Shown: positions 36,183 to 39,709 of the stretch, piece by piece
Position numbering within the stretch: position 1 is the first letter of the stretch
How the letters are laid out: every line of letters starts with the position of its first letter
Origin: Xenococcaceae cyanobacterium MO_188.B32
Lineage (GTDB): Bacteria > Cyanobacteriota > Cyanobacteriia > Cyanobacteriales > Xenococcaceae
Length of the DNA stretch: 39,709 nucleotides
Direction: 5' to 3'
NCBI GenBank assembly: GCA_030065635.1
Contig: JASJDJ010000037.1
Span: 1 to 39,709, forward strand
The notes under the pieces: model-generated
What the model saw: only the letters and a program-made list of their open reading frames with translations
What the model was told of the DNA's origin: nothing
Database searches by the model: none
Made by a program: the position numbers and the translations under genes

Positions 36183-38012
36183 CTAAGAAAATACCCGACT
36201 GCGCCATTTATTCAGACGTGCCTCGCCAATGCTAGCTAAACTTCGAGATTGTGCTATCTGCTGTTGAAGACTGGCAATTTTCTCTTGTTGGTCTTGAGAA
36301 CGTTGTTGTAAAGCTTCATAGCTACCTGGTTGAATCCAAGTTCTGCTGATGGGACTTTGAGTTGAGAAGCTAGATACTGACTCATTCTGCTCATCAACAT
36401 TAGTTAGATAAGATTGCCATTTACTCAAGCCTGCTGCGCCAATAGTGGCAAAGGACTGTAGTTCTTTTAATTCTTGTTCCAAAGAAGCAATGACTTTTTC
36501 TTGTTCTTCACACTCTTGTTGCAAAGCTTGATGAGCTTGAGATAAAGAAGATTTTTTAACTTCAGGAGATACAACAAAATCAAATTTAGGCTTGAATACT
36601 TCAGCCAACAAGCTTTCAACATCGGTAATCGGGACATTACCATTAGGATTGTTGTAAATAAGTGGTCGAACTAATCTTGGTTCATTTCCTGACACACCAG
36701 CTTTATCACTGGTAGAGACACTAGGTAGCATGGCGAACATATTAGTATACCCAAGCAATCTCTTGCCAGTTTGAGTCTTATAGCCTCGGTAATAAGGCAC
36801 TATATTTTCACCAAAAGCATCTTGATATTCGTCGCTATCAATATAGGAATCAATATCAGCTTCATAACCCTCTCGATCGAGGACGTTGCTATGATAAAGC
36901 GTTTCTTGATAACTATCGGGAGCACGACCAAGAAGGTGCTTGAAGTTCAATTCATGAGCACGATAGCGGGGACAATTATCAATAAATCTTGACTTGTACA
37001 ATTCTGATTTGGCTATCTGACGCACAAACTCCCGAACGCTTATTTCTCCTCGTTTTAGCTGAGACTCAGGGACAGTAAGGCGTTCGCTTTCCATGATGTG
37101 GGCATTGCCTAAAACCTGCTTGTATACTGCCTTAATTACAATTTCTAGTTCCTCTTGAGAGCTACCAGCTGTTAACTCGAGAGGATTAGTATCTGCCAAG
37201 GCATTATATTGACCTTGCCAAATTAAAGCTCTTGGTGAAATTACTTCTTCTTTTGGTTCTGGCTTGACAACTGGTACAGGAACAAATGGCTGATAGTTAT
37301 TAAGATTGAGAACTTTAGATAGTAGCTGATTAACATTCGTTGGTGGCGGAGTAGGCTTCCAAGAAGCGGGAATTGTTGACAGAGGAATAATTGAACTTGG
37401 CTTATTGGTTATCAGTGACTTTTGCAACCGAGAACGAGTACCAACAAAAGTAGAGCGATCGCTACTACAAGAACCCCGTAATAATTGGAAAATATGGGTA
37501 AAACCAGCTACATTTTTACCTGTCTGAGTTTTGTAGCCTAAATAATAGGGTACTGTATTTTCGCCAAAATTTTCTCGATACTCTTCGCTGTCAATATAGA
37601 AATCTATTTCGGCTTCAAAACCATTTTCATCTAAAATTTGCGTGTGTTCTACGATTTCCTCGTGATTTTCAGGGGCGCGACCGAGAAGATGCTTGAAATT
37701 CAATTCAATTGCTCTGAGGGTAGGACAATCGAAGAAAAATAGAGAACGATACAACTCTGACTTAGCTAATTGACGTACAAATTCTCGTACAGTGATTTCA
37801 CCATTTTTAAGTTGGGATTCAGGAATAGTTAACTGTTCGCTCTCCATTACATGAGCGTTGCCTAAAACCTGACGATAGGCTGCACGAATGACAACTTCTA
37901 TTTCTTCTTCTGAACTATGGGCAAAAAGTTCAATTGGTTCAGAATCCTCGTATAAACCTACTCCTAATTCTGATGCTTTACCAATTACTGGACTAATAAA
38001 AGTACTAACCAT
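36183..38012 (-). CDS. Phycobilisome linker polypeptide with two REP domains and duplicated C-terminal coiled coil
   Basis: 609 residues from ATG 38012, chosen because GGAGG sits 8 bases upstream; ATGs at 38039 and 38033 lack such a site. Two PBS-linker (REP, pfam00427-type) domains lie at about 33-180 and 283-432. They are close copies of each other, both with NAHVMESE-like, PESQLK, ELNFKHLLGRAP and PYYLGYKTQTGK blocks. A proline-rich linker (200-260) separates them. The C-terminus has two copies of a 45-residue module (493-537 and 564-608) with ALQQ, IASL, IG-A-L-KW motifs and coiled-coil character. There is no phycobiliprotein-like domain, so it is not ApcE. It likely joins two phycobiliprotein hexamers in a rod. 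It lies just behind an IscB stub. Confidence 0.85.
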   Translation of the reverse strand: MVSTFISPVIGKASELGVGLYEDSEPIELFAHSSEEEIEVVIRAAYRQVLGNAHVMESEQLTIPESQLKNGEITVREFVRQLAKSELYRSLFFFDCPTLRAIELNFKHLLGRAPENHEEIVEHTQILDENGFEAEIDFYIDSEEYRENFGENTVPYYLGYKTQTGKNVAGFTHIFQLLRGSCSSDRSTFVGTRSRLQKSLITNKPSSIIPLSTIPASWKPTPPPTNVNQLLSKVLNLNNYQPFVPVPVVKPEPKEEVISPRALIWQGQYNALADTNPLELTAGSSQEELEIVIKAVYKQVLGNAHIMESERLTVPESQLKRGEISVREFVRQIAKSELYKSRFIDNCPRYRAHELNFKHLLGRAPDSYQETLYHSNVLDREGYEADIDSYIDSDEYQDAFGENIVPYYRGYKTQTGKRLLGYTNMFAMLPSVSTSDKAGVSGNEPRLVRPLIYNNPNGNVPITDVESLLAEVFKPKFDFVVSPEVKKSSLSQAHQALQQECEEQEKVIASLEQELKELQSFATIGAAGLSKWQSYLTNVDEQNESVSSFSTQSPISRTWIQPGSYEALQQRSQDQQEKIASLQQQIAQSRSLASIGEARLNKWRSRVFS

Positions 38013-38051
38013 TGAAAAATCCTCCGATATCATCAACATAATTCGCGTGAG

Positions 38052-38080
38052 TCCCTAGGCTCAACGCAGTAGCCTAGGGA
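38052..38080. repeat. Perfect hairpin at the 3' end of the IscB stub
   Basis: Arms TCCCTAGGCT (38052-38061) and AGCCTAGGGA (38071-38080), loop of 9 bases. IS200/IS605-type elements carry subterminal hairpins recognised by the Y1 transposase, and this one sits where the right end of the former iscB element should be. A role as terminator or leader structure of the linker gene is also possible. Confidence 0.65.
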
Positions 38081-38083
38081 GGT

Positions 38084-38098
38084 AGAGCGCGCCGCTCT
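38084..38098. repeat. Small GC-rich palindrome next to the IscB hairpin
   Basis: AGAGCG-CGC-CGCTCT, 6-bp arms and 3-base loop. It lies between the end of recognisable IscB coding sequence and the larger hairpin. Confidence 0.5.
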
Positions 38099-38348
38099 TG
38101 CAATACATAACTTATTTGACCTCCGCAATAACTTAACTTTTGACAAACTAAACTGACCTATCCGTTTCCAGTTCAGGTCATAGACACTCAGCTTTTGAGA
38201 CTTTTCAGTATTGGTGAAACCACCAATCCAACCCCGATAGACAACACCTGCTTTCTCTGCTTCTACATAATCACCAGCCCGATAACCAAAAGGCGTAACT
38301 GTACCTCCTTTACGGCACTCTTGTTTGATGGGTGGCGAAAAGATTGGC

Positions 38349-39709
38349 ATTATTGAAAAATCACTTCAATCTAAATATCAAGTTGATAGCACTACAGTTA
38401 GAAACGTATACCACAATTTAAAAGGAAAACATAAAAGCATCAAAGAACTAAGAAAAACTCAAATTAAAGATTTAAAATCGACTATCAAGAGTATTCAATC
38501 AGCAATTAAGAAGCGTTTGAAGAAGAAAAATCTAGACGAAAAAGATAGATTCTTTATTCACCAGAAAAAGCGCAGACTAATTGTCAAACAACACAAACTA
38601 AAAGCCTTGGAGGAGAAAGGCATTAGCTTATGTTTTGGCACTAAAAAGCTATTTTTAGCTCAATATCACAAGCGAAAAAAATGGTTATTCAAATCATGAT
38701 GAGTGGTTAGCAGATTGGAGAGCAGCCAGAGCTTCTAGCTTTATGATGGTTGGAGCAAAAACTTACTCTACTGGAAATCAATTATGTAGATTAAGCAAAG
38801 ATGGGAAACTAAAGATAACTACACCTCCTTGCTTGTTAAAAAAATTTGAGGCTTACATTCAATGTGATGGCATTAAGTTCAGATACGGGCAAGAATTTAT
38901 TGATATTGCTTTAACTCCAACCAAGCACAAGCGAGGGAAAGAGTATCGTCATGGAACTGAAAAAGCTGTAACTCATCGTTTTGTTAGGCGAAATAATAAG
39001 TGGTATTTGCACACGACAGTTGAACTGCCAGACATACCAACTATCTCGAACAAAAAGAATGGAGCAATCGGTATCGATTTAAATGTCAAAAGTATTGCCT
39101 GGGCTTATTGCGACAGTGAAGGCAATCTTAAGCAACACGGACAAATTAATATTGACTTAGAAAATAAATCATCAGGTCAAACCACACATATTTTATCTCA
39201 GGCTATTGGGCAAGTAATTGATCTTGCAGTAGAAAAAGAATGTCAGATAGTAATAGAAAAATTAGATTTCAGAAGCAAGAAAAATAGACTGAGAGAACAT
39301 GGTAAACGCACTCGCGAAATGTTATCTCAATTTGCTTATTCCAAGTTGGCCGACTTAGTTCATTCCAAGGCTAGATTATCCGCTATTCAAACGATAGAAG
39401 TTAATCCTGCTTATTCGAGTTTGATTGGAATGATTAAGTTTATGGGGCTTTACGGATTAAATAGCGGTACGTGCGCAGCATTAGTACTCGCCCGTCGCAG
39501 TTTTCGATTCTCTGAGCGTTTGCCTAGATGCCAATTGCGCCTTTTTTCATCCAGTGGATTGTAATAAGCACGTATGGCATTATTGGGCAACGACATCAAA
39601 GTTACTGAAGGGTTGCCATCGGCATAGTTTCTTTAATGTGAGAGTCAGGTTTGGGGTCAAGCCTAATATCCAGAGTTCTTCCGAGAAAAGGAAGATATTA
39701 GGCAAAAGG
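38349..39709 (+). pseudogene. TnpB-family protein, copy 2, two frameshifts, runs off the window
   Basis: Homology to tnpB copy 1 begins at 38349 (IIEKSLQSKYQVDSTTVRNV), but the GTG start of copy 1 is ATT here and no recombinase gene precedes it. At an A7 run (38675-38681) the frame shifts; removing one A restores KRKNGYSNHDEWLADWRAAR as in copy 1. The next part (to about 39541) carries GIDLNVKSIAWAYCD (first RuvC acid) and IVIEKLDF (second). A T6 run at 39542-39547 shifts again; removing one T continues FHPVDCNKHVWHYWATTSKL to the window end. The usual zinc-ribbon cysteines and third Asp (D-x-NAA) are not visible: VNPAYSSLIG and GTCAALVLARR occupy the place. Likely inactive. Confidence 0.8.

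Follow-up and report, generated by a model that had tools for sequence, protein, structure and literature searches.

A cyanobacterial family of PF00427 linker proteins with one, two or seven REP domains and a conserved, predicted helical tail without a CpcD domain

The REP domain (PF00427) is established as the element that occupies the central opening of a phycobiliprotein hexamer. In rod-base linkers a REP comes first and a non-CpcD tail last, and in the red-algal rod-core linkers LRC2 and LRC3 a REP is followed by a long C-terminal arm. Chains with several REPs and no chromophore domain are represented by Glr1262 and Glr2806 of Gloeobacter violaceus, with three REPs each, and by CpcJ and CpcN of Anthocerotibacter panamensis, with two and five REPs, respectively. 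In the available part of one paper (PMC12525769) Glr1262 occupies three hexamers at the base of the rod bundle, its whole chain not being traceable, and both Glr1262 and Glr2806 are described as unique to Gloeobacter. The available part of another (PMC10696076) reports that CpcJ sits in side hexamers and that CpcN is without a CpcD-like domain, and suggests that both were eliminated en route to crown cyanobacteria.

The window, that is, the whole 39,709-bp stretch of DNA analysed here, from Xenococcaceae cyanobacterium MO_188.B32, contains a linker gene with two REPs and a C-terminal tail at 36183..38012 on the minus strand. The frame is open over 36183-38039 (minus strand), where an upstream ATG at 38039 gives a protein of 618 aa; the ATG at 38012, preceded by the ribosome-binding site GGAGGA (38020..38025, minus strand), is nevertheless the start position of the same-genus orthologue (locus L069, genome G392), which has this site too, and the length of 609 aa given by the sequence-only reading is thus correct. 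The same-genus genome shows the same architecture of two REPs and a tail, and since 11 further proteins are built in this way, the window's linker is no assembly artefact. A promoter and terminator scan gave no signal above chance.

Pfam matched PF00427 twice in the linker (E 1.2e-102; 339.3 bits against a cut-off of 28.7), with REP1 at 37542..37913 and REP2 at 36786..37160, both on the minus strand and modelled with pLDDT values of 60-92 and 65-94, respectively, by blocks of ten. Between them lies a proline-rich spacer (37242..37406, minus strand; 12 prolines in 55 residues) of low model confidence, and the interval between REP2 and the tail includes a partly conserved stretch, NNPNGNVPITDVESLLAEVFKP (36588..36653, minus strand; alignment A1). 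The phycobiliprotein domain PF00502 and the CpcD domain PF01383, either of which would have spoken for an ordinary linker, are both absent from the Pfam matches at E<=1, in line with the sequence-only reading, whose proline-rich spacer is confirmed too. Of the two REPs, which it described as near-duplicates, the arms are identical at 115/201 aligned residues (290/438 columns at the DNA level) and the cores at 83/127 columns, and the two fall into different tree groups, which makes them related domains but not recent duplicates. The AlphaFold2 model of the whole chain, made with 31 sequences, includes both REPs and two long helices (mean pLDDT 61.9, pTM 0.32), with the spacers at low confidence; at this pTM the mutual placing of the two REPs is not predicted.

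Among the REPs of its own genome, those of CpeC are nearest to REP1 and REP2 (77/123 residues, 63%, and 81/121, 67%), followed by other complete rod linkers (57-61%), whereas the identity to the ApcE REPs is 36-45% and to the CpcG/CpcL-like REPs 36-39%. By these comparisons the linker's REPs are of the CpeC/rod type and not of the ApcE/CpcG type, although the REPs of CpeC and of the phycocyanin linkers come out at almost the same distance, a near-tie that favours neither hexamer type over the other. The linker thus has the rod-type REP in common with CpcC and CpeC but lacks their C-terminal CpcD domain; compared with CpeC-type rod linkers (one REP and CpcD), its family has a coiled tail instead and one, two or seven REPs, and a CpeC-like gene stands in the same cluster as the double-REP gene in the same-genus genome. 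CpcG (rod-core) and CpcL (rod-membrane) linkers likewise begin with a REP and end in a tail other than CpcD, but the best NCBIfam CpcG model reached 218.2 bits, below its cut-off of 420. With ApcE the linker shares several REPs per chain but not PF00502, and the same genome has a separate apcE-like gene, a frame of 902 aa that codes for three REPs.

The best sequence matches among solved structures were CpcN (5.2e-219), Glr2806 and Glr1262, followed by ApcE and CpcJ, and the best fold matches of the linker model were Glr1262 at the top, CpcJ and CpcN. Having two REPs and neither PF00502 nor PF01383, the linker falls under the definition of the Gloeobacteria multi-REP linkers (at least two REPs and neither of these domains), and the likeness to them noticed from the sequence alone is therefore real. 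The tandem REPs are also shared with CpcJ and CpcN, but no tail comparable to that of the window's family, which belongs to crown cyanobacteria, was found in these two or in Glr1262 and Glr2806 with the tail as a query against the PDB. In that search the best match had an E value of 0.2 and no phycobilisome chain appeared at E<=1; LRC2 and LRC3 are matched over their REP stretches alone, and the tail alone matches neither at E<=1.

On balance, we consider it probable, though far from certain, that the protein is a rod linker of the phycoerythrin gene cluster in which a docking tail has replaced the CpcD cap, the multi-REP forms gathering several hexamers. It would be a linker of the CpeC kind, each REP of which would fill the hole of one hexamer, while the CpcD domain, which would enter the next hexamer of the rod, would be replaced by a two-helix coiled tail with the LNKWRxRxF end. 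This tail would most likely dock the plugged discs outside the rod, be it on a second copy of the linker, on the base of the rods or on a further antenna protein. Having two REPs and a flexible proline-rich spacer, one molecule might hold two hexamers, as Glr1262, CpcJ and CpcN hold several, and these would then belong to two rods or to two side-by-side discs; the absence of CpcD together with this layout makes stacking in one rod not easy and discs held externally more likely. Going beyond what the sequences show (the domains, the family, the gene neighbourhood, the type of the REPs and the helix and heptad predictions), we infer that the linker sits in phycobilisomes, where it would bind phycoerythrin rather than phycocyanin hexamers and gather rods.

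A search with the window's tail found matches in at least 30 of 386 genomes of the phylum, the own genome included, and in 13 of 27 genomes of the window's family, Xenococcaceae; a profile built from the tails of the REP-tail proteins matched at least 42/386. As no more than 9 to 11 preliminary candidates were scored in each genome, the counts over the 386 genomes are lower bounds. At least eight of the 386 genomes had a match with E <= 5.1e-49 that spans almost the full profile; after these the best value is 4.8e-20. Three points went unnoticed in the sequence-only reading: single-REP relatives share this tail, the family goes with phycoerythrin clusters, and there are forms with seven REPs. 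Named genomes were scanned with the single pattern LN[KR]WR[SND]RVF, which misses members with an altered end and gave 47 loci, one of which (L128) holds no intact member. Among 1178 ORFs (loci L034-L049, L069-L130 and the window), 68 combine a REP with a strong tail; 60 of these are different proteins, among which single-REP forms number 46, double-REP forms 12 and seven-REP forms two. The family was found in Nostocales, Pseudanabaenales and pleurocapsalean cyanobacteria, and the named two-REP carriers are a Xenococcaceae MAG, Mastigocoleus, Nostoc B(2019), Nostoc MG11, two Komarekiella, two Pseudanabaena, a Pseudanabaenaceae MAG and Cyanobacteria bacterium SBLK. A cyanobacterial region with cpeR and a REP-tail gene is also filed under a Candidatus Gracilibacteria MAG (L098), probably by contamination.

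The tail is predicted to consist of two helices on the minus strand, supported by module alignment, model and periodicity: helix 1 (36417..36563) with module copy 1, which ends in FATIGAAGLSKW, and helix 2 (36189..36320) with module copy 2. The duplicated C-terminal module, first described as 45 residues long, proved to be a pair of about 42 residues, identical at 19/42 positions, with a score of 105 that was reached by 0 of 2000 shuffles (mean 27.5, sd 5.1, maximum 57). AlphaFold2 placed long helices at residues 493-541 and 574-617 of the whole chain (numbered from the 38039 start, 618 aa) and gave the same two helices for the tail alone (pLDDT 64.6, pTM 0.45), and the duplicated helical tail is borne out by this model too. 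The heptad periodicity (102.86 degrees) was reached by 4/5000 shuffles for helix 1 and 49/5000 for helix 2, and the periodicity at 100 degrees by 38/5000 and 246/5000, respectively. In alignments of 13 and 31 tails the key residues L, L, I and G of module 1 vary hardly or not at all, and as these tails come mostly from single-REP proteins, the tail is no by-product of REP doubling. The chain closes with the motif LASIGEARLNKWRSRVF (36189..36239, minus strand; alignment A1), whose residues G, L, N, W, R, R and F are invariant in the 13 rows, the conserved consensus of the tail end being IGEARLNKWRxRxF. The last 20 residues, which are the most conserved part, have no heptad periodicity (reached by 2797/5000 shuffles) and must do something other than form a coiled coil; such a conserved end without heptads suggests a docking peptide.

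The position of the tail after the REP, as in rod-base linkers, also fits an anchor to the membrane or a photosystem, by which the protein would be a soluble-tailed counterpart of CpcL tying phycoerythrin rods to the thylakoid or photosystem I without a core. Three ribbon-helix-helix proteins adjoining REP-tail genes in two genomes end in a hydrophobic stretch (hydropathy 2.18-2.68) where relatives elsewhere have the tail motif, so that the two ends could be interchangeable; against this, a protein adjoining a REP-tail gene in genome G360 (partly masked) itself ends in the tail motif, and two more such neighbours are cut by contig ends. No transmembrane stretch exists in the tails of the REP-tail family, in which the mean hydropathy over 19 residues is at most 0.95 as compared with 2.22 in the CpcL-like protein of the own genome, taken as a control. 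The window's linker hence lacks the C-terminal hydrophobic helix of CpcL, and a transmembrane anchor was rejected. An amphipathic membrane helix at the C-terminus was rejected as well, its moment being low and reached by 3524/5000 shuffles. The membrane anchoring considered in the sequence-only reading is accordingly not supported, and with a CpcL-like gene already present in the genome an anchor of either kind appears unlikely.

Another alternative is a homotypic coiled coil, with tails coupling linkers to each other and thereby cross-linking phycobilisomes or rods into arrays. As modelled, the duplicated helical tail could join linkers: the heptads, the two predicted helices of 44-50 residues and the key module residues conserved across the family agree with this, and a recognised ribbon-helix-helix coiled-coil gene adjoins only 5 of 59 different members, which means that an adjoining gene for a separate partner is not usual. 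Such a coiled-coil protein was for the same count dropped as a general partner, although a similarity search may miss distant ones. The two helices may, however, simply fold onto each other, the non-heptad end is the best conserved part, and the fold matches of the tail are unspecific, with Z values of at most 8.0 for common helical arrangements (designed coiled coils, SNAP-25, gp41 mimics and spectrin repeats); the absence of red-algal linkers among them carries no evidential weight. Coupling of this homotypic kind is rather improbable, if somewhat less so than the anchor.

The placement of the linker in the phycoerythrin gene cluster, on which the preferred reading as a rod linker with a docking tail partly depends, comes from its relatives. 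In 43 of the 59 members other than the window's (6 of the 59 having less than 1.5 kb of upstream DNA in the fetched piece), a CpeR-like gene precedes the linker gene on its own strand by no more than 698 bp, namely in 34/46 singles, 9/11 doubles and 0/2 sevens; the other 16, including both seven-REP genes, have none adjoining. We take this gene, 111 aa in length, to be CpeR-like from its sequence features and its place, Pfam having given no match for it. In the same-genus genome (L069, G392) the cluster runs from a CpeC-like gene through two linkers, CpeS, CpeT and CpeR to the double REP, followed on the opposite strand by MPGP and hisD; CpeS (7e-64) and CpeT (1.5e-69) were confirmed by Pfam, while neighbours outside L069 were labelled by similarity to L069 and L034 proteins. 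CpeR matches were found in 55/386 genomes, comprising 7 of 8 sampled full-tail genomes, the eighth having no match at all, and 48 of the 378 others (Fisher p 6e-6, kinship ignored). In Pseudanabaena sp. PCC 7367 a 341-aa copy with a single REP, whose tail matches at 118 bits, follows CpeS, CpeT and CpeR-like genes. This copy is situated in the cpeBA region of a plasmid typed as conjugative (L145, NC_019690.1 259613-288086), a stretch that holds phycoerythrin and phycocyanin genes, lyases and the single-REP tail linker. A literature search over titles and abstract starts of openly licensed papers returned no linker combining a REP with a coiled tail and no linker gene following cpeR.

The own genome carries cpeB- and cpeA-like genes on contig C209, 81% and 90% identical to their PCC 7367 counterparts (the gene annotated there as cpeB and the one that follows, beside the REP-tail gene), and on the strength of this sequence similarity it encodes phycoerythrin. 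The window shares MPGP and hisD with L069, the break point between the two lying just before the ribosome-binding site; in the expected place of cpeR, directly upstream of this site, there is mobile-element sequence (38033-39564) with ORFs of 105 and 124 aa and a TnpB-like ORF of 273 aa (E 1.2e-16), and the gene may therefore be poorly expressed in this genome. It could even be a decaying leftover with no present role, cut off from its operon by mobile elements, given that in the same-genus genome 32 bp separate cpeR from the linker gene and the sole CpeR-like match of the own genome is on another contig, C102. The frame, however, is unbroken, the gene has retained its ribosome-binding site, and its tail shares 81% identity with the tail of the same-genus orthologue; moreover, the cpeC-linker cluster on contig C204 ends in a third linker at the contig end, so that the missing genes may be an assembly gap. 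Decay is consequently unlikely in our estimation. On C102 (L162) the CpeR-like gene stands beside a CpcL-like gene in a set with a response regulator, which resembles a CcaS/CcaR chromatic-acclimation locus. Hirose (2010) reportedly described an operon with cpcG2 in N. punctiforme. The idea that the REP-tail gene is this cpcG2 was dropped, as the linker of the operon is called the rod-membrane cpcL in the available part of PMC12461855.

The two seven-REP proteins come from the window's family (G409 and G410; 2007 and 2009 aa; L076 4007-10033 and L077 4321-10341, both on the minus strand) and have the same tail, with successive REPs that begin at intervals of 236-321 residues and are arranged alike in both; Pfam, applied to one of them, found seven stretches, and each REP pairs with its counterpart in the other protein in the tree. 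No other phycobilisome genes were recognised in the 12-14 kb around them. In the REP tree (123 columns) most REP2s cluster with single REPs from their own lineage and REP1s form separate groups, at 99/94 in Nostocales, at only 81/86 in Xenococcaceae plus SBLK and at 99/97 in Pseudanabaena, where two single-REP members fall inside. This lineage-wise grouping suggests that the REP number changed by repeated gain or loss.

The presence of the family in crown lineages means that chromophore-free multi-REP linkers are not confined to Gloeobacteria, and its members in Nostocales, Pseudanabaenales and Xenococcaceae speak against the Gloeobacter-only or eliminated view as given in the available parts of PMC12525769 and PMC10696076. 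A more far-reaching proposal, which we regard as possible but doubtful, is that thylakoid-bearing, phycoerythrin-containing cyanobacteria gather rods into bundles or side chains by self-docking tail linkers with one to seven REPs. If so, bundle-like antennas would be no relic of Gloeobacteria but would have been made and remade across the phylum by changes in REP number. Isolates in which non-hemidiscoidal antennas could be sought are Xenococcus sp. PCC 7305, Pseudanabaena sp. UWO311 and Komarekiella delphini-convector.

Of 1193 fetched proteins of at least 100 aa (duplicates kept), 88 end in a relaxed version of the motif, 67 with a REP and 21 without, whereas 105 other REP proteins of the same set lack it; the loci having been chosen for the tail, this fraction is no measure of frequency. 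Nine of the 21 are, by similarity, ribbon-helix-helix coiled-coil proteins, and two of three such proteins scanned match PF01402 (21.3 and 19.7 bits against 20.5). The 21 proteins lie in 20 stretches, 8 with a phycobiliprotein, linker or lyase gene and 12 without, as judged by similarity. That the motif recurs points to a docking module of antenna-related proteins which had gone unrecognised. HMA_2-domain proteins of one genus (g22; L153, L154 and L155) have the tail in weaker form, and no phycobilisome genes were recognised around them in the fetched stretches. A 228-aa ORF (L079 7363-8046), possibly an assembly chimera, joins a glycosyltransferase-like start to the tail of the REP-tail family with no REP. 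Two tail hits in G360 had raised the idea of a fusion of neighbouring linker genes, which was rejected because the second hit falls in no linker but at the C-terminal end of a ribbon-helix-helix coiled-coil gene. In proteins of this kind adjoining REP-tail genes (L074 1871-3340, L080 8666-9298 and 9302-11071) a hydrophobic C-terminal helix stands where the tail motif would be. Coiled-coil proteins with a like C-terminal motif, most of which start with a ribbon-helix-helix, are found near phycobiliprotein lyase genes at L046 7404-8867, L049 6829-7476, L152 6003-6668 and L045 8039-9382.
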